Shown here: positions 3,201 through 38,294 of the stretch, piece after piece
Numbering within the stretch: the stretch's first letter is position 1
Layout of the letters: the number at the start of each line of letters is the position of its first letter
Assembly (NCBI GenBank): GCA_021299855.1
Contig: JAJTEY010000008.1
Location: 1-38,294 of the forward strand
Length of the DNA stretch: 38,294 nucleotides
Direction of reading: 5' to 3'
DNA from: Bacteroidota bacterium
Lineage (GTDB): Bacteria > Bacteroidota > Bacteroidia > Palsa-965
Position numbers and translations under genes: made by a program
The notes under the pieces: model-generated
Databases searched by the model: none
What the model was told of the DNA's origin: nothing
Seen by the model: only the letters and a program-made list of their open reading frames with translations

Positions 3201-3935
3201 TCAAGCGTTCTTGGTGCCTGTGTATATAGAGGCGATACCGAAGGTCAATGGTTGCCAGGTGACATTAGAAAAACCTGCCTTTTTCATACGCTCCATAAAA
3301 GCTTCTCCGTCCGGAAATGCATTTACCGATTCGGGCAAATACGTATATGCTCGGGAATCTTTGGAAAACAATTTTCCGATTAAAGGTAATACGCGCAAGA
3401 AGTAAAAGTTGTAAAGTTGCTTAACGGGAAACTTACGCGGACGTGAGAATTCCAACACTGCAACCATACCACCTGGTTTCAAAACACGACACATATTCTC
3501 CAATCCTTTATCCAGATTTTCGAAATTGCGCACACCGAAACCTACAGTAATGGCATCAAAAGTGTTATTCTCGAAAGGAAGATTTTCGGAATCGCCGCTT
3601 TGCAAGGTGAGCTTGTGGTCGAGATTGATTTTTTTCAATTTCTCACGACCAAATTTCATCATGCCTTCCGAAATATCAACGCCGATAATTTGATCCGGAT
3701 TCAAGACACGATTAGCTTCTACTGCAAAATCTCCTGTTCCGGTGGCAACATCCAGCATCGTTTTAGGTTGCACTTTCGTCAACGTTTTGCATGCTTTTTT
3801 TCGCCATCCGTGATGAATACCGAGTGATAAAATTTGATTTAAGAAATCGTAACGATGCGCGATGTTATCGAACATGTCTGCCACCTGCTTCTTTTTACTT
3901 TCGCTCGTCTCGTAAGGAGTAACTGCACCTGCCAT
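3201..3935 (-). CDS. ubiE: Demethylmenaquinone methyltransferase
   Basis: SAM-dependent methyltransferase of 244 residues that methylates demethylmenaquinone, the last step of menaquinone synthesis (also called menG; Bacteroidota use menaquinone). Visible signatures are the family N-terminus (VADMFDNIAHRYDFLNQILSLG, here cited as residues 19-40), SAM motif I (DVATGTGD, 62-69), the acidic end of strand 2 (GVDISEGM), motif II (DAITVGFGVRNFENLD), and the family motif VLEFSRP. Length is normal. It is the first gene of the ubiE > porT > flavoprotein operon. A TAnnTTTG box lies just 4 nt before the ATG, which supports this start and suggests a leaderless message. Confidence 0.95.
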   Translation of the reverse strand: MAGAVTPYETSESKKKQVADMFDNIAHRYDFLNQILSLGIHHGWRKKACKTLTKVQPKTMLDVATGTGDFAVEANRVLNPDQIIGVDISEGMMKFGREKLKKINLDHKLTLQSGDSENLPFENNTFDAITVGFGVRNFENLDKGLENMCRVLKPGGMVAVLEFSRPRKFPVKQLYNFYFLRVLPLIGKLFSKDSRAYTYLPESVNAFPDGEAFMERMKKAGFSNVTWQPLTFGIASIYTGTKNA

Positions 3936-3939
3936 AAAA

Positions 3940-3947
3940 CAAAGTTA
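3940..3947 (-). promoter_or_regulatory. -7 box abutting the ubiE start codon
   Basis: TAACTTTG on the minus strand is an exact TAnnTTTG match that ends 4 nt before the ATG (3935). If it works as the -7 element, transcription would begin at or next to the ATG. Confidence 0.55.
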
Positions 3948-4005
3948 ATAATGATTATAACAACAGCCCTGAACTATTGTTGTTTAGCACGTGGGCGTAA
4001 TTCAT

Positions 4006-4031
4006 AAAAAAATCCCGCCAAAAGCGGGATT
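4006..4031 (-). terminator. Terminator of the sugar-dehydrogenase-like gene
   Basis: On the minus strand AATCCCGC, a 5-nt loop and GCGGGATT (4024-4031/4011-4018) are followed by a run of T (4006-4012 region), about 24 nt after the stop codon of the gene at 4055-5512. It is a classic intrinsic terminator. Confidence 0.85.
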
Positions 4032-4054
4032 TTGAAAAGCTTTGAAGCAATGTA

Positions 4055-5512
4055 TTAATGCACCAACAGTTTTGTGGTTTGAACTCCTGTTGTTGTGTGC
4101 AACTGAATGAAGTATTGACCCGGAGATAAATTCCACTGCTGCACATCGATTGCTGTTGTGTAAGATCCGGCTTCTTCTGTTTTTGAGAATACGGTTCCAA
4201 CAACACGACCGGTGATATCCAGAATTTGCATGGTAACTGCAGTTTCCTGTGTTAATGACCACTGAACAGTTGTTGAAGTGTTAGCAGGATTCGGATAAGT
4301 GCTCAACATTGAAATTCCTGAAGGTTGTTCTTCAACATTCAAACCTTGAGGACAAATACGATACAATTGTCCGTTGCTCGTATAACCACCTTTTAACGCG
4401 TAAACACAACCGTCTGTACCTTGCTTGATGGTGGTTAATCCGCCTGTAGTGGTCATATCCATCCATTGCGTGCGCGAAACAAATTGATCATATGCAGGCG
4501 CATTTCCCAATGTAATATCATATACACGACCGTAATCGTTATCGGCAACCAATAAATGATTGTCGAATTCAGGCATCACCTGACTGCTGTAAAATAAAAC
4601 TCCTGTTACTGCTGGCAATGGTGTTCCCCAATCTTCGATCGGTAATATATCATTGGGTAAGTTGCACAATGTTGAAGTGGAACTGTTCGCGTAAAATCCT
4701 TCGCAATTGGCCCAACCGTAAAATGCACCTTTATGAATCATGTTTACTTCATCCCACGCATTCCATCCGTTTTCGGTGCAATACATACTGTCGGTTACAG
4801 GACTGAAACAGAAGTCGAATGAATTACGATGACCATACGACCAAATCCAATCGCAAGTGTCATTAAGTGGCAAGCCATCTTCGTAAAACGGATTATCTGT
4901 AGGGCAGGTGCCGTCTTCGTTAATGCGCAAGATCTTACCGTAAGGGCTGGTCAACTTGTTCGCATAATTTAATGTGGGATTACCTTGCTGATATGCGAGA
5001 TCGCCGATTGTTAAATAAATTTTTCCGGGATCTCCGGGACGTAAATGCACATTACCTCCAACGTGATTACCCGCGATGTTATCTGCAACGTCCAAGTCAA
5101 AAATGATGGTTGGATTGGTCCCAACGTTATTCACTTCCGTGAAGCGTACAATACGAATGCGTTCATCTCCATTATAACGATGGTTGTAGTATGCAAATAC
5201 ATATTGATTCGTTGCAAAATCGGGATGAACGGTAATGCCCAGCAAACCGCGCTCGAAGTCACTGTTGCACGAATCGGAGAGATCATAGAATACACCGATG
5301 TAAGTTCCGTTCGGATTAAAAACTTTGATCTGTGCATCAACAGCCATATTCGAAACTCCACCTTTTTGTGTGATGAAGTAGCGACCGTCCGGAGCTACAT
5401 CAAATGCCACAGGATTGCTTAGGCTGCTGATTAAAGTTGTTTGTGTATACGTCTGTGCAAATGCCGAAATTGCAAGTGCGACAAAAAATTGGACTGCGGA
5501 AAGTTTTTTCAT
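4055..5512 (-). CDS. Secreted sorbosone/glucose dehydrogenase-like protein, T9SS cargo
   Basis: Exported protein of 485 residues. A signal peptide (1-20, ending SAFAQ) is followed by a six-bladed propeller of the PQQ-dependent sugar/aldose dehydrogenase-like (GSDH) family, with blade motifs such as VAFDVAPDGRYFITQKGG, RGLLGITVHPDFA, YLTIGDL, and SPYGKILRINEDGT. The last ~75 residues (from about 408) form a T9SS type A sorting domain: STYPNPA, then VQILDITGR-like strand, and a final GQYFIQLHT...KLLVH. Secretion to the surface by T9SS is therefore expected. A true PQQ enzyme cannot be claimed from the motifs I can see; many family members are uncharacterised. It begins 24 nt downstream of sppA, probably in the same transcript, and has its own terminator. 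Confidence 0.85.
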   Translation of the reverse strand: MKKLSAVQFFVALAISAFAQTYTQTTLISSLSNPVAFDVAPDGRYFITQKGGVSNMAVDAQIKVFNPNGTYIGVFYDLSDSCNSDFERGLLGITVHPDFATNQYVFAYYNHRYNGDERIRIVRFTEVNNVGTNPTIIFDLDVADNIAGNHVGGNVHLRPGDPGKIYLTIGDLAYQQGNPTLNYANKLTSPYGKILRINEDGTCPTDNPFYEDGLPLNDTCDWIWSYGHRNSFDFCFSPVTDSMYCTENGWNAWDEVNMIHKGAFYGWANCEGFYANSSTSTLCNLPNDILPIEDWGTPLPAVTGVLFYSSQVMPEFDNHLLVADNDYGRVYDITLGNAPAYDQFVSRTQWMDMTTTGGLTTIKQGTDGCVYALKGGYTSNGQLYRICPQGLNVEEQPSGISMLSTYPNPANTSTTVQWSLTQETAVTMQILDITGRVVGTVFSKTEEAGSYTTAIDVQQWNLSPGQYFIQLHTTTGVQTTKLLVH

Positions 5513-5536
5513 GTTGAGTGAATTGTGAACTCTAAG

Positions 5537-7402: not shown

Positions 7403-7410
7403 TACTTTTG
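7403..7410 (+). promoter_or_regulatory. -7 box abutting the folK start codon
   Basis: TACTTTTG is an exact TAnnTTTG match that ends 4 nt before ATG 7415. It lies downstream of the alternative ATG 7394, so it argues for 7415 as the true start and for a leaderless transcript. Confidence 0.55.
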
Positions 7411-7414: not shown

Positions 7415-7924
7415 ATGGCGCTCCCGGAGGTACATGTATTTATCGGACTTGGCTCGAATGAAGGAGATTCGTTGCAGCATTTATCGGACGCCCGACGGAA
7501 TATAGGCGAGTTGCCGGAAGCAAACTTGATAGCTACAAGTTCATTTTACCGAACAGCGGCTTGGGGCAAAACGGATCAACCCGATTTTATCAATCAGGTA
7601 ATTCAAGTTTCCACAACTTATCATCCTGAGGAATTGATGTTGCTATTGTTGGAAATCGAGGAGCAGATGGGTCGGAAACGGGAAGAAAAATGGGGTCCGC
7701 GCAGCATTGATCTGGATATTTTGTTTTTCGGACAGAGTATTCTCCATTTCGATTTGCTGCAGGTGCCGCATCCGCACATTACAGAGCGACGATTTGTGCT
7801 TGAACCGCTTTGCGAACTGGCGCCTGACTTTATACATCCGTTAAACGGGATAACCGTGCGCCAATTATTGGAGCTTTGTACCGATATTGGCTCGGTGAAA
7901 CGAATAAATTCCGGCAATGAGTAA
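7415..7924 (+). CDS. folK: HPPK, folate pyrophosphokinase
   Basis: 2-amino-4-hydroxy-6-hydroxymethyldihydropteridine diphosphokinase, 169 residues from this start, which transfers pyrophosphate from ATP to the pterin in folate synthesis. The family motifs are all present: FIGLGSNEGD at the N-terminus, SSFYRTAAWGKTDQPDFINQV, the signature RKREEKWGPRSIDLDILFFG, and HPHITERRFVLEPLCELAPD. An in-frame ATG at 7394 would add seven residues (MCCYFCF), but the promoter box lies between the two. Its 3' end overlaps the deoxynucleoside kinase start by 8 nt, which implies translational coupling. Confidence 0.95.
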   Translation: MALPEVHVFIGLGSNEGDSLQHLSDARRNIGELPEANLIATSSFYRTAAWGKTDQPDFINQVIQVSTTYHPEELMLLLLEIEEQMGRKREEKWGPRSIDLDILFFGQSILHFDLLQVPHPHITERRFVLEPLCELAPDFIHPLNGITVRQLLELCTDIGSVKRINSGNE

Positions 7925-10365: not shown

Positions 10366-10401
10366 ACAAAAAACCCGAAGCTTAGCTTCGGGTTTTTTTA
10401 T
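10366..10401. terminator. Bidirectional terminator between TPR gene and trmH-like gene
   Basis: AAACCCGAAGC (10371-10381), loop TTA, GCTTCGGGTTT (10385-10395), with A-rich sequence before and a T run after. Each strand therefore has a hairpin followed by T residues, so it can serve both convergent genes; it reaches the stop codon of the minus-strand gene at 10398. Confidence 0.9.
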
Positions 10402-10934
10402 TGCTTCTTGTTCAGCTTAAAGAATAACTCCCAGATTACGATTCCTGCAGTAACCGCGACGTTGAGCGAATGTTTCATGCCGTACTGAGGCAATTCCAGC
10501 GCACCGTCACAAGCATTCACCACTTCCTGCGCAACGCCTTCTACTTCGTTACCGAGAACAACTGCAATCTTATTGTTTACATGCGGTTCAAAGTTTTGCA
10601 GCATGGTGCTATTCATTACTTGTTCAATGCAGTAAACCGTGTAGCCTGCTTGCTTCAATGAATCCACGCATAATAATGTGGAATCAAAATGTTCCCAGGG
10701 AACTGATTCGGTTGCACCTAAAGCCGTTTTTTGAATTTCGCGATGCGGCGGAACAGCCGTAAATCCACACAAACAAATTTTTTCTACACGATAAGCATCG
10801 GAAGTTCTGAAAATAGAACCCACATTACTCATGCTTCTGATATTGTCGAGCACTATTACCAATGGCGCTTTGCCCGCTGCCCGTGCTTCTTCCGCACTTA
10901 GACGGCCCAATTCCTCGTTCGAAATTTTTTGCAT
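10398..10934 (-). CDS. TrmH/SpoU-family RNA methyltransferase
   Basis: SPOUT-class 2'-O-ribose RNA methyltransferase of 178 residues. The three family motifs are visible: motif 1 (LDNIRSMSNVGSIFRTSDAYRV), cited as residues ~29-50; motif 2 (IAVVLGNEVEGVAQEV); and motif 3 (ELPQYGMKHSLNVAVTAGIVIWEL), the trefoil-knot SAM site. The short length, without an N-terminal L30e-like substrate domain, points to a tRNA enzyme of the TrmL/TrmH kind, but the target nucleotide is not predictable here. A TTG two codons upstream (10940) is possible, but it lies inside a TAnnTTTG box, so ATG 10934 is preferred. Confidence 0.9.
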   Translation of the reverse strand: MQKISNEELGRLSAEEARAAGKAPLVIVLDNIRSMSNVGSIFRTSDAYRVEKICLCGFTAVPPHREIQKTALGATESVPWEHFDSTLLCVDSLKQAGYTVYCIEQVMNSTMLQNFEPHVNNKIAVVLGNEVEGVAQEVVNACDGALELPQYGMKHSLNVAVTAGIVIWELFFKLNKKQ

Positions 10935-10937: not shown

Positions 10938-10945
10938 CAAAGGTA
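10938..10945 (-). promoter_or_regulatory. -7 box abutting the trmH-like start codon
   Basis: TACCTTTG on the minus strand exactly matches TAnnTTTG and ends 3 nt before ATG 10934. It covers the alternative TTG start. Confidence 0.5.
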
Positions 10946-11816: not shown

Positions 11817-12248
11817 CATTTTACCGAAACTTACCTGCGACGTTTTTTTGTCCGTTACGCTAAAGTCTAAAACAAGTTTCGATTTGGCAGGGAATGTTCT
11901 GTAAGCATCGTAAATCCAATCGAAAGAATATTCGTTCTTCATATCGCGTAATTCCCATTTACCATCCAATAACGCATACGCATAGCACTGAATGCGATGC
12001 ACACCTTGAGGAACCTTAACGCTCACCGAATTTTTTTCACGTTGATCCTTGGGTTCACTTTCTCCGACAAAAAGTCCATCGATGTACACTTTAAGTTTTG
12101 TGATCTTGGAATAGCCTTCAATTGTACCCGTTGCCTGATATTCAATCTGCAGAGCAGCGGTGTAATCTGCAGGTAATGTGGTGTTGAACGATGCCATTGA
12201 GCACAATACAGCGAGCAACATTATAGTATGAAAAGTACTTCGAATCAT
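11811..12248 (-). CDS. Small secreted protein of unknown function
   Basis: Protein of 145 residues with an apparent signal peptide (about 1-22). The mature part is beta-rich, with a segment KLKVYIDGLFVGESEP followed by VKVPQGVHRIQCYAYALLDGKWE. That layout recalls PEGA-like or other small beta-sandwich domains that present a 'value with graceful loop', but I cannot name a family with confidence. Its ATG overlaps the proC stop codon by 4 nt (ATGA), so it is translationally coupled to proC. No functional link to proline synthesis is evident. Confidence 0.7.
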   Translation of the reverse strand: MIRSTFHTIMLLAVLCSMASFNTTLPADYTAALQIEYQATGTIEGYSKITKLKVYIDGLFVGESEPKDQREKNSVSVKVPQGVHRIQCYAYALLDGKWELRDMKNEYSFDWIYDAYRTFPAKSKLVLDFSVTDKKTSQVSFGKMK

Positions 12249-13054
12249 GACTTTAAGTTAGCTAATTCTCCGGCACGTTGTTCTGCTTTTTTCATGCCTT
12301 CTTTTAATCCTTCGTGTACGTGATACTTTTCAAACTCACGCAATGCCGCTTCTGTTGTACCACCGCGAGATGCAACCGTTCCAATTAAATCGTCCAGCGA
12401 TTTGCCGGCGTTGTTGATGAGGTGAAAGGAACCCAACATGGTTTGTTTTACCAATGTTGCAGCCACTGCTTCCGACATGCCCATTTCTTTTCCCGCTTCA
12501 ATCATGGCGCGTACGATATAGAAAAAGTAAGCAGGACCACTGCCACTCACTGCAGTTACCGCATCCAGCATTTTTTCATCTTCAAAAAAAACAGTTCTTC
12601 CTGTAGTGGCTATGAGTTGTTCAACCTGTCGTATTTGTGCAACAAGAACATCAGTGCCGGCAGAGAATCCCGTCATGCCGAGTCCAAGCTCCACCGGTGA
12701 ATTCGGCATAGCGCGCACCACCTGCGTCGTTCCCAACGATGATGCTAATTGCTGCAACGTAATGCCCGCCATAATAGAAACTACCGTGGTACGACTCGTG
12801 AGATATGGCGCAATTTTAGGCGCAAGATCACTAAAATCCTGAGGTTTTACGGCTAAAATGAGCAAATCGGTATCGCCAATTTCCGGAGTATCTGCAACGG
12901 TAACTTTACCCAGATTAAGTCGCATCAGTTCATCACGACGCTGTTCGTTTTTCTCTGCAAGAATCAGTGAATCCGCATTCACGATTTGATAACGCAGAAA
13001 TGCTCGGGCATACACCAATCCCATATTTCCGCATCCGACAATGGTAACTTTCAT
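12245..13054 (-). CDS. proC: Pyrroline-5-carboxylate reductase
   Basis: NAD(P)H-dependent reductase of 269 residues that makes proline from 1-pyrroline-5-carboxylate. The N-terminal Rossmann motif reads VTIVGCGNMG, followed by the NADP region and LAVKPQDF. The C-terminal dimer domain carries the ProC signature (AVSGSGPAYFFYIVRAMIEAG, a 21-residue stretch near 155-175) and TLVKQTMLGSF, ending with SRGGTTEAALREFE, where the substrate-binding Gly/Thr lie. A TTG two codons upstream (13060) falls inside a TAnnTTTG box, so ATG 13054 is chosen. It is divergent from mutS and coupled by 4 nt to the downstream secreted-protein gene. Confidence 0.95.
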   Translation of the reverse strand: MKVTIVGCGNMGLVYARAFLRYQIVNADSLILAEKNEQRRDELMRLNLGKVTVADTPEIGDTDLLILAVKPQDFSDLAPKIAPYLTSRTTVVSIMAGITLQQLASSLGTTQVVRAMPNSPVELGLGMTGFSAGTDVLVAQIRQVEQLIATTGRTVFFEDEKMLDAVTAVSGSGPAYFFYIVRAMIEAGKEMGMSEAVAATLVKQTMLGSFHLINNAGKSLDDLIGTVASRGGTTEAALREFEKYHVHEGLKEGMKKAEQRAGELANLKS

Positions 13055-13057: not shown

Positions 13058-13065
13058 CAAATGTA
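13058..13065 (-). promoter_or_regulatory. -7 box abutting the proC start codon
   Basis: TACATTTG on the minus strand is an exact TAnnTTTG match that ends 3 nt before ATG 13054. It overlaps the alternative TTG start and so decides between them. Confidence 0.55.
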
Positions 13066-13148: not shown

Positions 13149-13156
13149 TAATTTTA
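13149..13156 (+). promoter_or_regulatory. Near-consensus -7 box abutting the mutS start codon
   Basis: TAATTTTA matches seven of eight positions' worth of TAnnTTTG (last base A, not G) and ends 4 nt before ATG 13161. Its spacing equals that of the exact boxes at folK, ubiE and the TonB receptor. Confidence 0.4.
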
Positions 13157-13160: not shown

Positions 13161-15773
13161 ATGAGTTCGGCGAAGAAAGTGGCAGAAACACCGTTGATGA
13201 AACAGTACAACGAGATCAAGGCGAAATATCCTGATGCCTTGTTATTGTTTCGTGTGGGCGATTTCTACGAAACATTTGGTGAAGATGCCGTTAAAGCTGC
13301 GGGCGTATTGGGTATTGTACTAACCAAGCGCGCGAACGGATCTGCGTCGCACATTGAGTTGGCAGGATTTCCGCACCACTCAATGGAAAATTATTTGCCT
13401 CGTCTGGTGCGCGCCGGTTATCGTGTTGCGGTTTGCGATCAATTGGAAGATCCGAAATTGACCAAAACTATCGTGAAACGTGGCGTTACGGAACTGGTAA
13501 CTCCCGGTGTAGCATTTAGTGAAAAAGTTTTGGATCATCGCAGCAATAACTATTTGGCTGCAATTACGCCGGATACCAATACCATTGGTATTTCGTTTCT
13601 GGACGTTTCCACCGGAGAGTTTTTTATCGCTCAGGGACAACTCGCGTATATCGAAAAGTTGATGCAGAGTTTTCGTCCCAGTGAAGTGTTGTTTTGTAAA
13701 AAACAGAAATCGTGGATTAACGAACAGTTCGGCGATCGTTTCAATTTTTTCGGATTGGAAGATTGGGTTTTTACTACAGACTTCGCTTACGAAAAACTTA
13801 CGCGTCATTTTGGAACAGCTTCATTAAAAGGTTTCGGAATTGAAGAGCAAACTTCCGGTATTATTGCTGCAGGTGTTGCGTTACATTACTTAGGTGAAAC
13901 GCAGCATGAACGTGTGCAGCATATTACAGGCATAACGCGTATTGAAGAGAGTGAATTTGTGTGGTTAGATCGTTTCACGACGCGCAATCTCGAGTTGTTT
14001 TATTCTCCGAATGAAAATGCAAAAACGCTTATTACTACCATTGATAAAACGGTAACACCAATGGGTGCGCGCTTGCTGAAACGTTGGCTGGCATTGCCGT
14101 TGAAACAAACCGATAAAATTGCGGAACGTCACGAAGTGGTGCAGGCTTTGTTGCACGATCATCAGATCACGGAACAAATTATTGATTTGTTGAGTGCATG
14201 CGGTGATCTGGAACGCTTAATTGCGAAAGGAGCTGCAGGGCGCATCAATCCGCGGGAGTTACTGCAGTTGTCACATGGGTTAGCATTGGTGACGCAGGTG
14301 CAGGAGTTATGTCGTAATTCGGGTATTGCACGTTTGGAGCAATTGGCAACACATTTTGTCGATTGTTCGCAGATCGAACAAAAGATTCGAGAGCAATTAC
14401 ATGAAGATCCTCCGGCATTAGTGAATAAAGGTCATGTGATGGCGAACGGGGTGAATGCAGAGCTTGATGAATTACGTGCTTTGGCATTTTCGGGTAAAGA
14501 TTATTTGTTGCAAATGCAGCAACGAGAAATTGAACGCACCGGAATTCCTTCCCTGAAAGTTGCGTTTAACAACGTGTTCGGATATTATCTGGAAGTGACG
14601 AATGCTCACAAGGATAAAGTTCCCGTGGAGTGGATTCGTAAACAAACGTTGGTAAATGCAGAACGTTACATTACTCCCGAACTGAAAGAATACGAGGAAA
14701 AAATATTAGGTGCGGAGGAGAAAATTCTCGCCATTGAACAACGATTGTATCAAGAGTTGGTAACAAGTCTTGCCGCATTTGTACAACGCATACAACACAA
14801 TGCTGTTTTGCTTGCACAGTTGGATTGCTTGAGTGCCTTTGCAAATTTGGCGCGCATGCATCATTACACGCGACCTGTAGTGGATGAGTCGTTGATTATT
14901 GATATTAAAAGTGGACGACATCCGGTAATTGAGCAACAACTTCCGCCGGGCACGCCGTACATTGCTAATGATATTTATCTGGATCCGGAGTCGCAGCAAA
15001 TTATGATGATTACCGGTCCTAACATGGCAGGTAAATCGGCTCTGTTACGGCAAACAGCATTGATAGTTTTGTTGGCGCAAATCGGAAGTTTTGTTCCGGC
15101 TGCACATGCGCGTATCGGCATTGTAGATAAAATTTTTACGCGTGTTGGTGCATCGGATAATATTTCGTCCGGTGAATCAACGTTTATGGTGGAGATGAAC
15201 GAGACGGCTAGCATTCTGAATAATTTGTCGGCCCGAAGTTTGGTGTTGCTGGATGAAATTGGTCGTGGCACAAGTACGTACGATGGTATTTCAATTGCGT
15301 GGGCTATTGCCGAATTTATTCACGAGCAGCAGCAGCACAAAGCGAAAACCTTGTTTGCGACGCATTACCACGAATTGAACGAAATGACTTCTTCCTTTCC
15401 GCGCATTCGCAATTTTAACGTGAGTGTGAAGGAGTCGGGTGGTAAAATTATTTTTCTCCGCAAGTTAGAGCAGGGTGGAAGTGAGCACAGTTTTGGTATT
15501 CACGTTGCGAAGTTGGCGGGTATGCCGCGTGTAGTGGTTGAACGTGCAAAGGCCGTGATGCAGCAGTTGGAGCAGTCGCATAGCGGTGATCAGCTCATGC
15601 ATCAAACCGGAACGGGCAAGGACGAAAACCTGCAATTAAGTTTTTTCCAATTGGACGATCCTGTTCTGGAGCAGATCAAAGAAGAGTTGGTTAAAACGGA
15701 CATCAATCATCTGACTCCCGTAGAGGCTTTGATGAAGCTGAACGAGATCAAGAAGCTGGTTGGAGGCAAGTGA
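13161..15773 (+). CDS. mutS: DNA mismatch repair protein MutS
   Basis: MutS1 of 870 residues, which recognises mismatches and recruits MutL. The mismatch-reading Phe-x-Glu is F35-Y-E37 in GDFYETF. Domains follow in the usual order: mismatch binding (1-125), connector, lever/clamp, and the ABC-type ATPase. Walker A is GPNMAGKS (619-626) and Walker B is LVLLDEIGRGTSTYDG, followed by the H-loop region LFATHYHEL. The C-terminal tail has the helix-turn-helix dimer part and a short LTPVEALMKLNEIKKL end typical of MutS1. Length is normal and nothing is missing. It is divergent from proC; two tRNA genes with their own promoter follow. Confidence 0.97.
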   Translation: MSSAKKVAETPLMKQYNEIKAKYPDALLLFRVGDFYETFGEDAVKAAGVLGIVLTKRANGSASHIELAGFPHHSMENYLPRLVRAGYRVAVCDQLEDPKLTKTIVKRGVTELVTPGVAFSEKVLDHRSNNYLAAITPDTNTIGISFLDVSTGEFFIAQGQLAYIEKLMQSFRPSEVLFCKKQKSWINEQFGDRFNFFGLEDWVFTTDFAYEKLTRHFGTASLKGFGIEEQTSGIIAAGVALHYLGETQHERVQHITGITRIEESEFVWLDRFTTRNLELFYSPNENAKTLITTIDKTVTPMGARLLKRWLALPLKQTDKIAERHEVVQALLHDHQITEQIIDLLSACGDLERLIAKGAAGRINPRELLQLSHGLALVTQVQELCRNSGIARLEQLATHFVDCSQIEQKIREQLHEDPPALVNKGHVMANGVNAELDELRALAFSGKDYLLQMQQREIERTGIPSLKVAFNNVFGYYLEVTNAHKDKVPVEWIRKQTLVNAERYITPELKEYEEKILGAEEKILAIEQRLYQELVTSLAAFVQRIQHNAVLLAQLDCLSAFANLARMHHYTRPVVDESLIIDIKSGRHPVIEQQLPPGTPYIANDIYLDPESQQIMMITGPNMAGKSALLRQTALIVLLAQIGSFVPAAHARIGIVDKIFTRVGASDNISSGESTFMVEMNETASILNNLSARSLVLLDEIGRGTSTYDGISIAWAIAEFIHEQQQHKAKTLFATHYHELNEMTSSFPRIRNFNVSVKESGGKIIFLRKLEQGGSEHSFGIHVAKLAGMPRVVVERAKAVMQQLEQSHSGDQLMHQTGTGKDENLQLSFFQLDDPVLEQIKEELVKTDINHLTPVEALMKLNEIKKLVGGK

Positions 15774-15807
15774 TTGACTTATAGGGTAATAAAAACCCAT
15801 ATTTATT

Positions 15808-15837
15808 TTGCATTATTCATTTGGGTTGTTACTTTTG
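15808..15837 (+). promoter_or_regulatory. Promoter of the tRNA-Gly gene
   Basis: TTG (15808-15810), 19 nt, and TACTTTTG (15830-15837) reproduce the full Bacteroidota sigma-A consensus TTG-N19-TAnnTTTG, 56 nt before the tRNA. It is the best two-part promoter in the window. Confidence 0.75.
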
Positions 15838-15893
15838 TAACCCGTTTTCAACAAGACGTTATTGTCGAATGGAAACGTTCTTTGTAATAATTA

Positions 15894-15966
15894 GCGGAAG
15901 TAGCTCAGTTGGTAGAGCGTAACCTTGCCAAGGTTAAGGTCGCGAGTTCGAGACTCGTCTTCCGCT
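15894..15966 (+). tRNA. tRNA-Gly (anticodon GCC)
   Basis: A 73-nt cloverleaf: acceptor GCGGAAG/CTTCCGC, D arm with GCTC/GAGC, anticodon stem TAACC/GGTTA with loop TTGCCAA and anticodon GCC (15927-15929), and T arm containing GTTCGAG. The 3' CCA is not encoded. An intrinsic terminator follows at once. Confidence 0.95.
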
Positions 15967-15973
15967 CTTTTTT

Positions 15974-15998
15974 CCTCTCGATGAGAGGTTTTTTTTTA
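15974..15998 (+). terminator. Terminator between the two tRNA genes
   Basis: CCTCTC (15974-15979), loop GAT, GAGAGG (15983-15988), then a run of nine T. It stands 8 nt after tRNA-Gly and would separate it from tRNA-Leu. Confidence 0.8.
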
Positions 15999-16033
15999 CC
16001 CCGATTTTGGGGTTCGTTCATCATCAGATGAAC
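15998..16033 (+). repeat. Two hairpins just before tRNA-Leu
   Basis: ACCCC-GATTTT-GGGGT (15998-16013) and GTTCATC-ATCA-GATGAAC (16016-16033) are perfect small inverted repeats that end 1 nt before tRNA-Leu. They could be processing signals or part of an attenuating leader. No TAnnTTTG box is seen here. Confidence 0.5.
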
Positions 16034-16034
16034 A

Positions 16035-16119
16035 TGCCTGGGTGGTGGAATTGGTAGACACGAGGGACTTAAAATCCCTTGGCAGTAATGCCGTACGGGT
16101 TCAAGTCCCGTCTCGGGTA
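16035..16119 (+). tRNA. tRNA-Leu (anticodon UAA)
   Basis: An 85-nt class II tRNA with a long variable arm. The acceptor pairs GCCTGGG with CTCGGGT (with wobble pairs), the anticodon stem is AGGGA/TCCCT with loop CTTAAAA and anticodon TAA (16069-16071), the variable arm lies around TTGGCAGTAATGCCGT, and the T loop is in GGGTTCAAGTCCC. CCA is not encoded. Confidence 0.95.
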
Positions 16120-16124
16120 CAAAA

Positions 16125-16287: not shown

Positions 16288-17673
16288 TCACTCCCCAATC
16301 ACCAACTTCCCCGATTTCATCACTTGTGCCGAACCTCTCGTGATGCGGTACATATACAAACCTGACTGTACCGCAAGCGGTAAGGTGGTGCGGCCGGATT
16401 GTAGCGAAAGAGTGTACAACAATTGTCCGTTCAAATTGTACAATTCGAATTGTGTGGGTGGTGTTGTTGATTCTAAAATAACTTCAACCTGGCCGGAGCT
16501 TGGATTAGGAAATACCTGAACGTTAGTGTTAGCGTCTGTTTCTTCCTGTGCCGTCATGCCGATGTAGAAGAAATGACTGTAGGTTTGGTTGTTGTATACA
16601 ATGTCATATTTCCATTGCCCGTACGGCGCATTGCTGCCTAAAATAATCCACCAGTACACATACGCGGCATTGTAATTGGGCATAGTGTTGTTCCAAGACC
16701 AGGTTGACCATAAGGTGTTATTGGGTTGATAGATGTTGACGGTAATTAAATCGCCGGTATTCAAAAAACGGTAATACGACATGAGGTAAATGGTATCCAA
16801 CTGACCGAAGTAATTTTGTTCATTCTTCACATCCGGTGCAGAACAGGGATTGAAATTCGGGAGTTGATTGTTGGTAGAGATATGATTTAATGCGGCATCA
16901 AAGTATGCGTGTTGATTTTGCCACCAGCTTGCACTGTTCATGGTATTACATGTACCCGCATACGGATCGATAAGATTGTTTCCTGAGTCGTACACTTCAA
17001 AATGTAAATGCGGTCCCGTTGAATTGCCCGAACTGCCCACTACGCCTAAGTATTCGCCCTGCGCTACCGACGCACCTACATTTTTTGTAGTAAGCGTTCC
17101 CGCTTTCATATGTCCGTACCAGGCTACAGAACCGTCGCTGTGCTGCACGTAAACAGCATTCCAATTGTTATTATTAAATGTGCAACTGCGATCGAAATTA
17201 CCGTCGGATTTGTAGAGTATGGTTCCAGCAGCGGCAGAAACAATTTCTACATCGTTACTGTCCATTTTATTCCAGGCAAAGGGCCAGAGGAAATAGTCGG
17301 TGCCTTTATGGTTGTAGCCGGAAGGCGTGTCGTACGTGCGTTGTCCACAATTGTAGTCGGTCAATTGATTCGGGAAAGCGGGATTATGATCCACATGAGC
17401 GGAAATGGAATGATAACCGTATTCATTCACACCTGCGCGTAATTGCAAAGGCCAGGCAAAAAGTACCAGTGCATTTTGATCCGGAGGAGGCAGCAGTTGT
17501 TCCGTGAACAGTTGCACGCGTATGCTGTCGAGTGTGTTCATGATTTGCGCACGATGCACGTCGGATAAACATTCCGTATGCTGCGTCTGATAAGGAACCA
17601 CGACAGGAGCGCTGTTTTGAGCACCGATTACCCCGTGCAACAACAGGAGGGCGATAGTGAAGATTTTATGCAT
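16288..17673 (-). CDS. Secreted M23 metallopeptidase with T9SS sorting domain
   Basis: Exported protein of 461 residues. A signal peptide (1-18, ending GVIGA) leads into an M23/LytM peptidase domain (about 115-240). Zinc ligands are H122 and D126 (in NHKGTDYF) and H224 (in PHLHFE), with H188 (WYGHMK) and H222 as further active-site histidines. Enzymes of this kind cut peptidoglycan cross-bridges or glycine-rich peptides. A beta-rich middle part precedes a T9SS type A sorting domain in the last ~75 residues (VFPNPSSG, FELYNLNGQLL, SGLYMYRI, SGKLVIGE). It should thus be released or anchored outside the cell, so the target may be foreign cell walls or proteins rather than its own wall. Its start is divergent from the TerB-like gene. 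Confidence 0.9.
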   Translation of the reverse strand: MHKIFTIALLLLHGVIGAQNSAPVVVPYQTQHTECLSDVHRAQIMNTLDSIRVQLFTEQLLPPPDQNALVLFAWPLQLRAGVNEYGYHSISAHVDHNPAFPNQLTDYNCGQRTYDTPSGYNHKGTDYFLWPFAWNKMDSNDVEIVSAAAGTILYKSDGNFDRSCTFNNNNWNAVYVQHSDGSVAWYGHMKAGTLTTKNVGASVAQGEYLGVVGSSGNSTGPHLHFEVYDSGNNLIDPYAGTCNTMNSASWWQNQHAYFDAALNHISTNNQLPNFNPCSAPDVKNEQNYFGQLDTIYLMSYYRFLNTGDLITVNIYQPNNTLWSTWSWNNTMPNYNAAYVYWWIILGSNAPYGQWKYDIVYNNQTYSHFFYIGMTAQEETDANTNVQVFPNPSSGQVEVILESTTPPTQFELYNLNGQLLYTLSLQSGRTTLPLAVQSGLYMYRITRGSAQVMKSGKLVIGE

Positions 17674-18276: not shown

Positions 18277-18459
18277 ATGAAGACTTTATTTACCGAACGT
18301 CCCGAATGTAGAATTGTTGCCTTTCGTGTGAAGCGCAGTGCGGCACCGAAAAGTTTTTTGTTGTTGCAGAATTCGTTCGGCAGCTGGGTAGCTCCGGTGC
18401 AATTGTGTGAAGGCATGCATCAGGCGGATGTGAGTGCATCATTAATTTATTTGAACTGA
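18277..18459 (+). CDS. 60-residue protein of unknown function
   Basis: Small ORF whose TGA stop (18457-18459) shares one base with the ATG of the next gene, an arrangement typical of coupled translation. The product is basic in its first half (RVKRSAAPK) and hydrophobic further on (SFLLLQNSFGSWVAPVQL). I recognise no family. It starts 30 nt after a terminator. Real coding status rests mainly on the exact junction with the DnaA-like gene and on the absence of any better use of this 200-nt stretch. Confidence 0.5.
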   Translation: MKTLFTERPECRIVAFRVKRSAAPKSFLLLQNSFGSWVAPVQLCEGMHQADVSASLIYLN

Positions 18460-20160: not shown

Positions 20161-20168
20161 TAAAGTTA
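20161..20168 (-). promoter_or_regulatory. Near-consensus -7 box abutting the WYL gene start
   Basis: TAACTTTA on the minus strand differs from TAnnTTTG only in the last base and ends 3 nt before ATG 20157, supporting that start. Confidence 0.4.
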
Positions 20169-20225: not shown

Positions 20226-20233
20226 TATCTTTA
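20226..20233 (+). promoter_or_regulatory. Near-consensus -7 box for rmuC
   Basis: TATCTTTA differs from TAnnTTTG in the last base and ends 9 nt before ATG 20243. Confidence 0.35.
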
Positions 20234-21708: not shown

Positions 21709-21716
21709 TACTTTTG
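21709..21716 (+). promoter_or_regulatory. Candidate -7 box for the DUF5916 gene
   Basis: TACTTTTG, an exact TAnnTTTG match, ends 10 nt before ATG 21727. It lies downstream of the alternative GTG start 21673, which it argues against. Confidence 0.5.
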
Positions 21717-27164: not shown

Positions 27165-27851
27165 TTAACGAATGGCGTGAAGTAATATTTTCATTTCTTC
27201 AGGATCGGGTTCAATATTACTGCCGAAAGCAGTTGCTATAGTTGCGCCTTTTGCAGATGAATGAAATTCCTTACAGCCAATATTTTCTTTAATACGGGAA
27301 ATGTTTTTTGAAGTTACACCGCCACCGGGAAGTAGAATGATTTTGTCGGAATACAATTCGTTCCACTTTTTTAAATTGGAAATTCCTTTATCCACATTCG
27401 ATTCGCCACCTGAAGTCAATACACGTTGCACTCCCAATCGAATAAACACGTCCAACGCTTCTTCATGGTGCGGCACAGCATCAAATGCACGGTGAAAAGT
27501 CACGGGCAAACCCTTAGTACACTCCAACAAGTGTTGTATCGCCTGTTCATCAACAGTGGAGTTTTTATTCAAGGCACCAATCACGAATCCGTCTGCACCG
27601 GCATGTTTCAGTGCTGTAATTTCATGTTGCATGAGTTGAATTTCATCTTGAGTGTAGGTGAAATCTCCTTCACGACAACGAATCATAACGAACACGGGGA
27701 TATCGACGGAGTCTTTTACAGCGCGCAATGCAGCAGTGGTTGGTGTAAGACCGCCGTTCGAATAACCATAACACAGCTCTATACGATGCGCTCCGAGTTG
27801 TGCTGCTCTGATTGCTGCTCCTGCCGAAAATGCTGCTATTTCGAGAATCAT
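27165..27851 (-). CDS. cutC: CutC family protein
   Basis: TIM-barrel protein of 228 residues with the CutC signatures: AAFSAGAAIRAAQLGAHRIELCYG at the N-terminus, GGLTPT, VFVMIRCREGDFTY, ITALKHAGADGFVIGAL, VTFHRAFDAVPHHEEALD, RVLTSGG, and ILLPGGGVTSKN. The family was named for copper homeostasis in E. coli, but that role has been questioned. No copper-binding cysteine cluster is visible here. Its place as first gene of an operon with a beta-mannosidase suggests a sugar-related role. A TATTTTTA box is weakly visible upstream. Confidence 0.92.
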   Translation of the reverse strand: MILEIAAFSAGAAIRAAQLGAHRIELCYGYSNGGLTPTTAALRAVKDSVDIPVFVMIRCREGDFTYTQDEIQLMQHEITALKHAGADGFVIGALNKNSTVDEQAIQHLLECTKGLPVTFHRAFDAVPHHEEALDVFIRLGVQRVLTSGGESNVDKGISNLKKWNELYSDKIILLPGGGVTSKNISRIKENIGCKEFHSSAKGATIATAFGSNIEPDPEEMKILLHAIR

Positions 27852-27939
27852 GATGTTTTAAAAATACTGCATTCTGTGCTGCTAATTCGCTTCGGTTAAA
27901 AAAGTTTTACATTCCCGTTCCTCGCATACTCTAAGCGCG

Positions 27940-33330: not shown

Positions 33331-33338
33331 TAAAGTTA
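33331..33338 (-). promoter_or_regulatory. Near-consensus -7 box next to the amidotransferase-like start
   Basis: TAACTTTA on the minus strand ends 5 nt before ATG 33325; it differs from TAnnTTTG in the last base. Confidence 0.35.
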
Positions 33339-33361: not shown

Positions 33362-34906
33362 TTAGAACGGATCTTCTTCGATATCGTTGAGTTTAGAGCC
33401 GCGAATAATACTTCCTCCGCCCGGGTTAAAGTCGGTAGAAGGTGTAATTCCCGCAGTCGGATCGTAAGTAACACCACCGGAGAATCCGGAGTTGAAGCCG
33501 CCGTCCAAATCCGAGAATTTGGCGAGTTGGTTGATGAAACGCAAGTTCACAGAACCTACTGCACCGTTACGGTGTTTCGCAATGATAATTTCTGCAACAC
33601 CTTGTGTAGAGTTACCTTCTGCATCTTGCGTAAATCCGTAGTATTCCGGACGGTGAATGAACAATACCATATCCGCATCTTGCTCAATCGCGCCCGATTC
33701 ACGTAAGTCGGATAATTGCGGACGACGATCACCACCGCGTGTTTCAACCGCACGACTTAACTGCGACAACGCAATGATCGGAACGTTCAATTCTTTAGCG
33801 ATACTCTTCAATGATCGGGAAATAGTAGAAATTTCCTGTTCACGGTTTCCGCGGTTATCACCACCCGTAGTCATCAGTTGAAGATAATCGACGATGATCA
33901 ATTGAATGTCGTGCTGCGCTTTTAAACGTCGGCACTTCGCTCGCATTTCAAAAATGGAAAGGGCAGGAGTATCATCAATGAAAATAGGTGCTTCGGAAAG
34001 CTTACCAATCTTCACGTGTAGTTGTTGGTATTCGTGATCTTCAAGTTGCCCTTTCTTCAATTTCTCTGCAGAAAGTTCCGATTCACTTGCAATCAAACGT
34101 TGCACCAATTGTACGGAGGCCATTTCCAGCGAGAACAACGCAATCGGGCGACTGAATTCTACAGCAGCATTACGCGCAAGTGATAACACGAATGCGGTTT
34201 TACCCATTGCAGGACGCGCAGCAAGAATTACCAAATCTGAATTTTGCCAGCCGGAAGTCATTCGGTCGAGATCTGTAAATCCGCTAGGAACACCGGTTAC
34301 GCCGGTTTTTTGATTTCGTGCAGTTTCAATTTGTTCCATCGCCTGGTTGATCAGAGAACTCATCTTATCGTAGTTCTTTCTGATGTTACCTTCCACAACG
34401 GAGAACAAATTGCGTTCAGCTTTATCCAACAAATCAAATACATCCGCTGTGTCTTCGTATGCTTCACGAATTGTTTCGCTGGAGATTTGAATCAACTCGC
34501 GTTGAATATATTTCTGAGAAATAATTCGGGCATGAAATTCAACGTTAGCAGCAGATGCAACGCGATTGGTAAGCTGTGAAATGTAATACGCACCGCCTAC
34601 AATTTCCAACTCGCCGGTACGTTTTAATTCCTGCGTTACGGTCAAAATATCAATAGGTTCCGAACGTTGAAATAAGTTTTGAATCGCGTTGAAAATTCTG
34701 CCGTGTGCTTCTTTGTAAAAACTTTTGTGCGTGAGAATATCCACCACAGCCGTCAATGCATCTTTTTCGAGCATCAACGCACCCAACACGGCCTCTTCCA
34801 ATTCCACGGCCGGAGGCGGCAACTTACCAATTTCGTAAAGTTGCTGACTTACCTGCGCCAATTGCAGCGGTTTGCGGGTTGACGTTCTTTTCTCTTCTGT
34901 GCTCAT
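33362..34906 (-). CDS. dnaB: Replicative DNA helicase DnaB
   Basis: Hexameric replicative helicase of 514 residues. The N-terminal domain (about 30-135: PPAVELEEAVLGALMLEKDA) is followed by the linker and the RecA-like ATPase. Walker A is ARPAMGKTA (near residue 230), Walker B is LIIVDYLQLM, and the family motifs PIIALSQLSRAVETR and RPQLSDLRESGAIEQDADMV, cited in part, are intact with the arginine finger region IIIAKHRNGAVG. No intein interrupts the ATPase motifs. The tail after about 470 is glycine-rich and ends acidic (EEDPF). It is divergent from hpt; a TACTTTTG box lies 20 nt before the ATG. Confidence 0.97.
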   Translation of the reverse strand: MSTEEKRTSTRKPLQLAQVSQQLYEIGKLPPPAVELEEAVLGALMLEKDALTAVVDILTHKSFYKEAHGRIFNAIQNLFQRSEPIDILTVTQELKRTGELEIVGGAYYISQLTNRVASAANVEFHARIISQKYIQRELIQISSETIREAYEDTADVFDLLDKAERNLFSVVEGNIRKNYDKMSSLINQAMEQIETARNQKTGVTGVPSGFTDLDRMTSGWQNSDLVILAARPAMGKTAFVLSLARNAAVEFSRPIALFSLEMASVQLVQRLIASESELSAEKLKKGQLEDHEYQQLHVKIGKLSEAPIFIDDTPALSIFEMRAKCRRLKAQHDIQLIIVDYLQLMTTGGDNRGNREQEISTISRSLKSIAKELNVPIIALSQLSRAVETRGGDRRPQLSDLRESGAIEQDADMVLFIHRPEYYGFTQDAEGNSTQGVAEIIIAKHRNGAVGSVNLRFINQLAKFSDLDGGFNSGFSGGVTYDPTAGITPSTDFNPGGGSIIRGSKLNDIEEDPF

Positions 34907-34926: not shown

Positions 34927-34934
34927 CAAAAGTA
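34927..34934 (-). promoter_or_regulatory. Candidate -7 box for dnaB
   Basis: TACTTTTG on the minus strand, an exact TAnnTTTG match, 20 nt before the dnaB ATG. Confidence 0.5.
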
Positions 34935-34959
34935 GGAAAATATGCGCCCCCGATGCACG

Positions 34960-35092: not shown

Positions 35093-35102
35093 TGCCTCTA
35101 CT

Positions 35103-35639: not shown

Positions 35640-35650
35640 AAATTGTACAC

Positions 35651-36223: not shown

Positions 36224-36247
36224 TCAACCATGTTGATTTCTATATCG

Positions 36248-36275
36248 GGCAACCTTCGGGTTGCCTTTTTTATTT
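36248..36275 (+). terminator. Terminator of the hpt-adk operon
   Basis: GGCAACC (36248-36254), TTCG tetraloop, GGTTGCC (36259-36265), then TTTTTTATTT. It lies 24 nt after the adk stop. Confidence 0.92.
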
Positions 36276-36326
36276 CTGTAATTTGATTTGCCGTAAATAA
36301 AATTTAGATACGCCTAAAAAAGTATT

Positions 36327-36334
36327 TATATTTG
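36327..36334 (+). promoter_or_regulatory. -7 box abutting the TonB receptor start codon
   Basis: TATATTTG, an exact TAnnTTTG match, ends 4 nt before ATG 36339. A TTT at 36303-36305 is a weak candidate for the upstream element. Confidence 0.55.
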
Positions 36335-36338
36335 CCAA

Positions 36339-38294
36339 ATGTTTACGGGCAGATTGATATTGACTTTTTTCCTTTACGTCTCGTGCGTTCACGTATATGC
36401 TGCGACTATTTCGGGAATTGTGCAATCGGGTAATGAGCCAGTACCATTCGCGTTAGTTGGTGTTGTTGGAACAAGTGTCGGTGTAACAACTGATGCTTCC
36501 GGGAAATTTAGTTTACAATTAGCTCCGGGTAAATACGAATTGCGTTTTCAATGTGTAGGATATTTAACCTTGCAAAAAGCAATCACGGTTACAGATCAAG
36601 ATCTGACGTTGCAAATAATTCTGGAGCCCGATGGCAAACAATTGAATGAAGTAGTGGTATCTGGAACGATGAGCGATATAGAACGTTTTGATTCACCGGT
36701 GTTGGTAGATGTGTACAATCCTACATTTTTGAAACGCAATCCTGTCCCGAATCTTTTCGAGTCGGTGGCAATGATTAACGGTGTGCGTCCTCAAATGAAT
36801 TGTAACGTATGTAATACGGGCGATATTCATATTAACGGTATGGAAGGTCCGTACACGATGATTCTGATTGATGGAATGCCGATCGTCAGCAGTTTATCCA
36901 CGGTATACGGATTAATGGGAATTCCAACTTCTCTTATTGAACGAGTGGAGATCATGAAAGGTCCTGCATCTTCATTGTATGGTTCGGAAGCGATGGGTGG
37001 CATTATTAATGTCATTACCCGTAATCCGATGAATGCGCCTAAGTTTGGTGCGGATGTCAGTTCTACTTCTTGGGGAGAGGTAAATGCAGATTTCGCCGGA
37101 AGTTATCGCCTGGGAAAACGAACGCATGGATTGACAGGTGTCAATTACTTCAATTATTCGTTACCAGTTGATGCGAATAACGATGGTTTTACGGACATGA
37201 CGTTGCAGAAAAGATTGTCTGCGTTTTCGCGAATCATATTTCTGGACACGCTGAATCGCCAGTCTTCATTGGGTATGCGCTACGTATATGAAGATCGTTG
37301 GGGCGGTGAAATGAATTGGAACAATGCGTTTCGTGGTGGTGACAGTATTTATGGTGAAAGTATTTATACCAATCGTGTTGAAGTAATCGGTTCGTGGCAA
37401 TTGCCGGTAAAAAAAGACATAACACTTCAAACTTCGTACACGTTGCACGATCAAAATTCTGTGTACGGAACTATAGCGTACATTGCTGCACAGCATATCG
37501 GATTCGCGCAATTGTTCCATCGTTTTTCAAAAGGGCGCAGCAATTGGTTAGCAGGAACTGCATGGCGTTTAAATCATTATGATGACAATACACCGGCGAC
37601 TGAATTTATCAATAACAATATTGTCCAGACTCGTCCTGCAATTACTTCTTTGCCGGGCGTGTTTTTGCAAAACGATTGGATGCTCAACGAACGTCATCGA
37701 TTGTTACTGGGTTACCGAATGGATTATCATCCCATACACGGGCTCATTCATTCGCCACGTATAGCATGGAAATATGCACCACATGAACGATTGATAATGC
37801 GATGGAGTAGTGGCACAGGATTTCGCGTAGTGAATTTGTTTACTGAAGATCACGCAGCCTTAACCGGTTCACGTGAAGTGATAATACGTAACGCGCTGAA
37901 TCCCGAGCGATCAATTAATCTCACCGGAAATTTAACCTGGCGCACCTATCACTCGTCGTGGTTCGGAGGTCTTGAAGTAACTGCATTCTACACTTATTTC
38001 TCGAACAAGATTGTAGCAGATTATGATAGCGATCCCGACGCGATTATTTATGATAATCTTCAGGGATATGCAGTGTCTTCAGGCGTTAGCATGAATGCGG
38101 ATATCACGTTTACCACAGGTACAAAATTCACTTTCGGCGCTTCATATATGGAGGTCTATCGGATGGATCGTGATTCCATGAATCGTTATGAAAAGAATGT
38201 TCAGCTATTCGCACCGCGCTGGTCGGCAACAGGAACCTTGTCGCACACCTTTAAAAAACGCACGCAAGTATATTTGACATTTAACACCTACGGC
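36339..38294 (+). CDS. TonB-dependent receptor (3' end beyond the window)
   Basis: At least 652 residues, open to the window end without a stop. Signal peptide about 1-22 (ending VHVYA); a carboxypeptidase-regulatory-like domain (about 23-105: ISGIVQSGNEPVPFALVGVVGTS, cited by its first residues, and SGKFSLQLAPGKYELRF); a TonB-box-like junction (LNEVVVSG); then the plug (about 115-230) with HINGMEGPYTMILIDGMP, IERVEIMKGPASSLYGSEAMGGIINVITR, cited in part, and a C-x-x-C pair (C155 and C158 in MNCNVCNTG). The rest is barrel. Family members bring in iron chelates, cobalamin, metals or oligosaccharides; the ligand here is not readable, though the plug cysteines hint at a metal or redox step. The message may be leaderless. 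Confidence 0.92.
   Translation, partial: MFTGRLILTFFLYVSCVHVYAATISGIVQSGNEPVPFALVGVVGTSVGVTTDASGKFSLQLAPGKYELRFQCVGYLTLQKAITVTDQDLTLQIILEPDGKQLNEVVVSGTMSDIERFDSPVLVDVYNPTFLKRNPVPNLFESVAMINGVRPQMNCNVCNTGDIHINGMEGPYTMILIDGMPIVSSLSTVYGLMGIPTSLIERVEIMKGPASSLYGSEAMGGIINVITRNPMNAPKFGADVSSTSWGEVNADFAGSYRLGKRTHGLTGVNYFNYSLPVDANNDGFTDMTLQKRLSAFSRIIFLDTLNRQSSLGMRYVYEDRWGGEMNWNNAFRGGDSIYGESIYTNRVEVIGSWQLPVKKDITLQTSYTLHDQNSVYGTIAYIAAQHIGFAQLFHRFSKGRSNWLAGTAWRLNHYDDNTPATEFINNNIVQTRPAITSLPGVFLQNDWMLNERHRLLLGYRMDYHPIHGLIHSPRIAWKYAPHERLIMRWSSGTGFRVVNLFTEDHAALTGSREVIIRNALNPERSINLTGNLTWRTYHSSWFGGLEVTAFYTYFSNKIVADYDSDPDAIIYDNLQGYAVSSGVSMNADITFTTGTKFTFGASYMEVYRMDRDSMNRYEKNVQLFAPRWSATGTLSHTFKKRTQVYLTFNTYG

Follow-up and report, generated by a model that had tools for sequence, protein, structure and literature searches.

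Five genes in the window, a 38,294-nucleotide (nt) stretch of DNA from a Bacteroidota bacterium of the GTDB group Palsa-965 (assembly GCA_021299855.1, contig JAJTEY010000008.1), carry an exact copy of the -7 promoter box TAnnTTTG that ends 3 or 4 nt before their ATG. These boxes are very probably -7 elements of promoters read by sigma-ABfr, the primary sigma factor of Bacteroidota, placed so that the first transcribed base would be the A of the start codon or one only a few positions away, and the corresponding mRNAs are predicted to be leaderless. The term is used here by analogy with Flavobacterium johnsoniae, where RNA-seq refined the sigma-ABfr consensus TAnnTTTG to TAHHTTTG and where transcription starts 4-5 nt past the box (PMC6847099). 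The initial annotation of the window had raised this reading, and the sequence comparisons support it: the boxes peak 3-6 nt before start codons, none of the 60 operon-internal genes sampled in this genome has one there, many orthologues show a similar spacing and G is avoided at the variable positions of the box.

Placement of the -7 box in the window and its genome

Throughout, the gap is the number of nt between the end of the box and the start codon, and an exact box is TAnnTTTG. The window belongs to an assembly of 2.08 Mb in 88 contigs (72% complete), of which we sampled 414 kb (376 kb in 20 stretches plus the window). Genes were called with a custom-built caller that relies on a coding score and is blind to the box. 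Gap counts were compared with 100 dinucleotide shuffles of the 60 nt upstream of each gene; genes less than 60 nt from the end of a stretch were excluded, which left 285 of the 293 genes of the window genome. For whole assemblies, the number of box-gap-ATG sites was compared with that of the reversed pattern, and a gap of 11 served as second control. Gap counts set against shuffles are for exact boxes only, while the operon and divergent-gene figures for the window genome and for family f42 (see below) include three box variants.

The box-like elements found upstream of genes in the window are listed below.

3940..3947, minus strand: exact -7 box TAACTTTG, gap 4 to the ATG of ubiE (3201-3935, minus)
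7403..7410, plus strand: exact -7 box TACTTTTG, gap 4 to the ATG of folK (7415-7924, plus)
10938..10945, minus strand: exact -7 box TACCTTTG, gap 3 to the ATG of a SpoU/TrmH-like methylase gene (10398-10934, minus)
13058..13065, minus strand: exact -7 box TACATTTG, gap 3 to the ATG of proC (12245-13054, minus)
36327..36334, plus strand: exact -7 box TATATTTG, gap 4 to the ATG of a TonB-dependent receptor gene (36339 to the window end, plus)
13149..13156, plus strand: near box TAATTTTA, gap 4 to the ATG of mutS (13161-15773, plus)
20161..20168, minus strand: near box TAACTTTA, gap 3 to the ATG of a WYL protein gene (19153-20157, minus)
18446..18453, plus strand: weak and doubtful near box TTTATTTG, gap 5 to an ATG at 18459
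33331..33338, minus strand: near box TAACTTTA, gap 5 to an ATG at 33325, absent from the initial annotation
27859-27866, minus strand: near box TATTTTTA, gap 7 to a CutC-family gene (27165-27851), also absent from it
20226..20233, plus strand: near box TATCTTTA, gap 9 to rmuC (20243-21658, plus), a short leader
21709..21716, plus strand: exact box TACTTTTG, gap 10 to a DUF5916 gene (21727-24132, plus), a short leader
34927..34934, minus strand: exact box TACTTTTG, gap 20 to dnaB (33362-34906, minus), a leadered contrast
3179..3186, minus strand: exact box TATCTTTG, gap 19 to an outer-membrane barrel gene (2452-3159, minus), a leadered contrast

The five exact boxes were recovered with the gaps originally given (ubiE 4, trmH-like 3, proC 3, folK 4, TonB receptor 4), as were the near matches of mutS (TAATTTTA, gap 4) and of the WYL gene (TAACTTTA, gap 3) and the boxes described at 9-10 nt for the DUF5916 gene (exact, 10 nt) and rmuC (TATCTTTA, 9 nt). 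A near match had also been ascribed to an 'amidotransferase-like' gene; TTTATTTG lies at gap 5 from the ATG at 18459, possibly the gene that was meant, which has no Pfam match. For hpt, a search that allows one mismatch yields no box 9-10 nt upstream and finds TAGCTTTT at gap 4 instead. Pfam and NCBIfam confirm the identities of ubiE, folK (HPPK), the SpoU/TrmH-like methylase, proC and the TonB-plug receptor, and also agree with the earlier naming of mutS, the WYL gene, rmuC and the DUF5916 gene. In all, the window contains 28 copies of TAnnTTTG where 36 are expected, so that the box is not over-represented; what is unusual is its placement and not its abundance. Over 31 candidate starts (two genes were entered with two alternatives each) and four gaps, 0.045 exact boxes are expected at gaps 3-6 and five were seen (Poisson probability 1.5e-9, and 4e-6 even at a fivefold rate), which bears out the first impression that this is hard to put down to chance.

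The genome-wide scan suggested with the initial annotation did find a peak close to start codons. Box-gap4-ATG occurs at 77 sites in the whole assembly against 37 for the reversed pattern (p 1.1e-4), and box-gap11-ATG at 21 sites against 26. In the 414 kb sample, 20 of the 285 genes have an exact box at 3-6 nt (shuffle mean 0.87, maximum 3). These fall at gaps 3, 4, 5 and 6 in three, nine, five and three cases, with fewer beyond and a broad second mode around 18-45. Exact boxes at 15-45 nt precede 35 of the 285 genes (5.7 shuffled), and close spacing thus accounts for 20 of the 55 genes with an exact box in either range. The variant TAHHTTTA is likewise enriched at gaps 3-6 (11 against 0.45). 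With three variants counted, a box is found at 3-6 nt in front of 31 of 284 genes, and only at 15-60 nt in front of another 56. This genome therefore mixes the two modes gene by gene, leadered promoters being the majority.

Pooling exact boxes from eight genome groups gave, for gaps 0 to 15, counts of 0, 0, 0, 8, 60, 31, 19, 13, 9, 7, 6, 2, 2, 4, 2 and 4, followed by a broad second mode. The empty gaps 0-2 are as expected if transcription may not start within the start codon. The trough between the modes (gaps 8-14) is clear in Flavobacteriaceae (1 gene), Bacteroidales (0) and Sphingobacteriaceae/Chitinophagaceae (1).

Spacing across the class and among orthologues

In 140 of 149 genomes of the class, which represent 63 families, the gap-4 pattern is more frequent than its reversed control, at p<0.001 in 75 (sums 14436 and 8257); with a gap of 11 only 85 of the 149 are above the control, at p<0.001 in 5 (8683 and 8154). 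The gap-4 excess ranges from -3.5 to +78 sites per Mb, with 13.4 in the window's family and about 19 in its own genome. Two families stand out: f42, with 714 gap-4 sites against 53 in the control (four genomes), and f38, with 913 against 241 (three genomes). In a 420 kb sample of the f42 genome G088 (a single contig, G+C 0.55), an exact box lies at 3-6 nt before 63 of 307 starts and at 15-45 nt before 11. The figures for f38 are 15 of 80 starts and 12, in a small sample (one genome, 134 kb). Named Flavobacteriaceae show the reverse balance, with 8 of 390 starts at 3-6 nt and 53 at 15-45 nt (666 kb, 31 loci around mutS), in agreement with mapped transcriptomes, and G056 of family f46 has 1 of 94 and 10, respectively. 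The samples from named groups came from 56 of 80 mutS loci and are all centred on mutS, so that their genes are not independent draws. Judged from box positions, the effect is moderate in the window genome, low in most genomes of the class and extreme in f42 and f38.

In other classes of the phylum, gap 4 is above the control in 42 of 89 genomes, at p<0.001 in 7 (3030 and 2805 sites), and the excess lies mainly in families f77, f75, f85 and f68 (f77, six genomes: 235 against 85). This result and the box total of the window, which is not enriched, are what one could cite for an origin of the pattern by chance or from an AT-rich composition. Neither the shuffles nor the reversed pattern nor the gap-11 control reproduces the peak in the window genome and the class; they refute chance, and we regard this explanation as hardly credible.

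In a MutS tree of 108 rows including named Bacteroidota, the window genome is placed with Bacteroidota, and f42 and f38 fall outside every named group, on long branches. We considered several independent origins of the close spacing and dropped the idea, the MutS tree being too weak to carry it. As a side observation, the MutS of L096, a record titled Chitinophaga pinensis, lies among metagenome-assembled genomes labelled Crocinitomicaceae or other Flavobacteriales, apart from that of the same-named L129; one of the two may be mislabelled. The 3' end of the 16S rRNA was found by pattern in 4 of 21 genomes, and both the f42 genome G088 and G007 of the window's family keep CCTCC. Loss of the anti-Shine-Dalgarno sequence (anti-SD) is thus not required for the close-box mode. 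An Rfam search for 16S gave a match in 6 of 18 genomes, none of them the window genome or one of f42 or f38.

Orthologues were compared at 25 of 30 ubiE, 23 of 30 trmH, 28 of 30 mutS, 20 of 24 topA and 20 of 22 mdh loci; for the first three genes the remainder were weaker matches, mostly paralogues. No ATG could be read for ubiE in G002, G010 and G032, for trmH in G057 and for mutS in G111. For proC, 27 of 29 loci are considered, and the ten from the window's family were reread allowing near boxes (the sequence of G010 is incomplete).

Ten genomes of the window's family were searched for ubiE, and the box lies at gap 4-5 in six of the eight that could be read (G000, G001, G003, G005, G006 and G007); one of these boxes reads TACTTTTA, and the rest of the ubiE upstream sequence has drifted among the family genomes. 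For mutS, a box-like site was seen at gaps 4-8 in all seven family genomes and is exact in four of them; in several, the ATG chosen for the comparison lies upstream of the expected one. In 5 of the 10 family genomes, the trmH-like gene is preceded at gap 3-4 by an exact box or its TTCG variant, and reading by eye added one more with CATCTTTG at gap 5. Among nine readable family genomes, the proC box is at gaps 3-4 in four (one exact and three with one mismatch, the latter of the same genus and all at gap 4), at 17-20 in four others and at 45 in one. Since these spacings differ within the window's family, one gene can switch modes inside a family.

The same gene also occurs with both spacings between families. 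The mdh box is at gap 4 in all four f42 genomes and 39-48 nt away in all six genomes of the window's family (one degenerate). In ten other genomes, exact or one-mismatch sites were seen at least 18 nt from mdh in nine and none in G056; one of the nine, G085, has an additional degenerate TATTTTTA at gap 5. Likewise, topA has an exact box at gaps 5-6 in all four f42 genomes, and none is listed within 15 nt in the other 16. By contrast, ubiE in f42 has its box 17-19 nt away, where the opposite strand may be coding.

Promoter identity and start codons

In the window genome, 20 of 98 genes in divergent position are preceded by a box at 3-6 nt, whereas the 60 operon-internal genes have none there (p 4e-5). 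The corresponding counts are 40 of 84 and 9 of 116 in f42 (p 1e-10), and none of 48 operon-internal genes of Flavobacteriaceae has a close box. Close boxes are thus concentrated at genes able to head transcription units. In addition, G is rare at the variable positions: it occurs in 2 of 20 boxes at gap 3-6 and in 4 of 41 at 13-60 in the window genome, compared with 91 of all 265 TAnnTTTG (p 0.015), and in 6 of 63 close boxes of f42 compared with 82 of 328. The lack of boxes before operon-internal genes, together with the same avoidance of G as in the mapped promoters of F. johnsoniae, indicates that the boxes are sigma-A promoters and not ribosome sites.

We nevertheless weighed the possibility that the element is a translation signal, namely an AT-rich ribosome-binding element unrelated to SD pairing. 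Gene-start work assigned AT-rich non-canonical ribosome-binding sites (RBSs) to the FCB group (PMC9581028), and sequence logos of Bacteroidales show AT enrichment near -13 and from -8 to -6 (PMC3155529), close to the position of a gap-4 box (-12 to -5). A translation signal would, however, be expected before operon-internal genes too, where close boxes are missing from the window genome and from Flavobacteriaceae, though not entirely from f42. Moreover, the sequence is that of the sigma-A box down to the avoidance of G, and an identical box lies 15-60 nt upstream of other genes and of orthologues. We rejected the translation signal mainly on account of the operon-internal genes and consider it highly improbable.

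A second upstream promoter could produce the main, leadered mRNA, the box at the ATG then being a minor or alternative start. Dual transcription starts are common in bacteria, and more than one box-like site is present upstream of the outer-membrane barrel gene (which has a weaker AATGTTTG at gap 4 besides its exact box), proC and mutS. In f42 the spacers of boxed divergent genes are short (median 64.5 nt, n=40) and leave scant room for a second leadered promoter, but those of unboxed genes are also short (73 nt, n=35). We regard a second promoter as unlikely, although it is the most plausible of the alternatives.

In the window, proC and mutS are divergent with 106 bp between them and have a box-like element at each ATG, the promoters lying back to back. 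A similar arrangement was seen in f42 locus L171, where divergent genes at 13466-14575 (minus) and 14613-15938 (plus) are 37 bp apart with an exact box at each start, so that the spacer consists of two back-to-back promoters. Further short-spaced divergent pairs boxed on both sides occur in the f42 genome G088.

The boxes might also be promoters followed by an ordinary leader, with translation starting at a downstream codon. The gene starts are indeed predictions, and among 36 sites in the 414 kb sample with TAHHTTTG, a gap of 3-6 and an ATG, 16 are called starts. Yet the called starts were chosen without regard to the box and still peak at gap 4. In addition, the NCBIfam match begins at the first residue for the products of three boxed genes, those of fructose-6-phosphate aldolase, malate dehydrogenase (in f42) and peptide deformylase (in the window genome, below the curated cut-off); the other boxed proteins are matched from residue 3 to 17, which is neutral evidence. 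Many boxed f42 proteins begin at the boxed codon with apparent signal peptides, as read by eye, and the ATGs of ubiE and proC orthologues mostly coincide. We thus hold initiation at a downstream codon to be very unlikely.

The box had been said to settle four start codons in the window. Three of them (10934, 13054 and 20157) were also picked by the coding-score caller; for folK, which the caller missed, HPPK models start at residue 8-9 and do not settle 7415, so that the box is the one pointer to this start. The competing TTG starts at 10940 and 13060, which simple ORF calling proposes, are nothing other than the last three nt of each box, put in the reading frame of the ATG by the gap of 3, and such a box-derived TTG is a source of start misannotation. 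In f42, 14 of 37 genes starting with GTG have a box at 3-6 nt (three variants; sample L160 and L171-L190), which suggests leaderless initiation at GUG as well.

Two further features of the window concern other subjects. A tRNA-Gly(gcc) and a tRNA-Leu(taa) lie in tandem at 15894-16120, and Pfam finds Por_Secre_tail C-termini on secreted proteins at 4055-5512 and 16288-17673, which points to a type IX secretion system.

Mechanism, known systems and significance

In the mechanism we propose, RNA polymerase with sigma-ABfr would bind the box and open the DNA across the start codon. A gap of 4 would put +1 on the A of the ATG if the distance from box to start is 4, and with gaps of 5-9 transcription would begin a few bases earlier. 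The resulting mRNA would have neither a leader nor a ribosome-binding element, and a ribosome with initiator tRNA would bind its 5'-terminal AUG (or GUG), as on leaderless mRNAs in other organisms. The promoter half of this scheme is strongly supported by the comparisons above, and the half that concerns initiation at a 5' AUG is extrapolated from other organisms.

Several observations weigh against this reading. In mapped transcriptomes, 87% of the predicted F. johnsoniae transcripts with a probable promoter have leaders longer than 10 nt and at most 13% are shorter or leaderless (PMC6847099), leaders under 10 nt make up 3.7% in Bacteroides thetaiotaomicron (PMC7366714), and leaderless or short-leader transcripts 5.5% in Flavobacterium psychrophilum (PMC9723704); the leaderless or sub-10-nt share is therefore 3.7-13% in three mapped Bacteroidota. 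The signal is weak in a same-genus sample (198 kb, three genomes): of 103 genes, 3 have a box at 3-6 nt, where shuffles give 0.24 and at most 2, and 10 have one at 15-45 nt. The description of leaderless mRNAs as 'widespread' accordingly applies in a relative sense, given this sample, the 20 of 55 boxed genes in the window genome and its leadered majority. The trough at gaps 8-14 is not empty in the window genome (6 genes), f42 (15) and f38 (7), against 1.6, 0.8 and 0.7 shuffled, and a gap of 3 would place +1 inside the ATG if the distance is always 4-5. Nine of the 116 operon-internal genes of f42 have a close box. The 36 box-plus-ATG sites include, besides the 16 called starts, nine that are intergenic (some perhaps missed genes like folK), three in-frame alternatives, five in another frame and three antisense. 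Among orthologues, ubiE has no box in two of the eight readable family genomes (G008 and G009, where it seems to lie close behind another gene), topA has no close box in any of the six window-family genomes read, and a box is missing before trmH in all three f42 genomes read. No clear TTG peak (-33 element) was found 12-33 nt upstream of the boxes of the window genome (n=20) or f42 (n=63), and the Kozak-like A at -3 tends to be lost from boxed genes without this being more than a trend (9 of 31 compared with 92 of 197, p 0.08). The -33 element is much less evident in F. johnsoniae too (PMC6847099).

The boxes described here resemble the sigma-ABfr box of Bacteroides and Flavobacterium in consensus and in avoidance of G, and also lie 15-45 nt before 35 of 285 genes of the window genome; they differ in that a large share abuts the start codon, whereas leaders exceed 10 nt for most F. 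johnsoniae transcripts. The minority of short leaders in B. thetaiotaomicron and F. psychrophilum involves the same phylum and the same promoter, and our Flavobacteriaceae sample has a similarly small share (8 of 390). Close boxes are commoner in the window genome (20 of 285), and dominant in the f42 genome G088 (63 against 11). As in the leaderless mRNAs of Actinobacteria and Deinococcus-Thermus, a core promoter element would set +1 on the start codon, with leadered genes in the same genome; the sigma box is different, theirs being a TA-like -10 about 10-12 nt before the start.

SD pairing plays a small part in Bacteroidota, although the anti-SD is retained in most of them; A-rich leaders and Kozak-like bases have been proposed as their start cues. 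A 2011 survey of 953 bacterial genomes reported leaderless genes in 1 of 37 Bacteroidetes/Chlorobi; its reference was the Pribnow box of E. coli, and it warns that non-Pribnow signals may escape (PMC3160421). A 2017 statement on leaderless mRNAs in Bacteroidetes draws on that survey, a Bacteroides RBS paper and an RBS survey, with no mapped starts among these sources, and a 2024 study suggests leaderless mRNA in some Flavobacteriia without CCUCC (PMC10783764). The passages of 2017 and 2024 that make these suggestions mention neither a -7 box nor its spacing, and the f42 genome G088 described here keeps CCTCC. In the open-access literature we found no report of a mostly leaderless lineage of Bacteroidota or of a -7 box abutting the start codon as a rule.

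For f42 and f38 (and perhaps f47, f17, f20 and f57) we consider it likely that leaderless initiation is the main mode for genes heading transcription units, brought about by a -7 box moved against the start codon, with the anti-SD intact in the one f42 genome read. The low shares reported to date would in that case reflect which few species have been mapped, and part of the AT-rich 'non-canonical RBS' would be promoter. If leaderless starts are common in some lineages, these would provide natural test cases for SD-free initiation. Very short spacers between genes would suit such starts, which gene finders trained on leadered signals could misplace. The distance from box to ATG would offer a cheap predictor of leader length from the genome alone.

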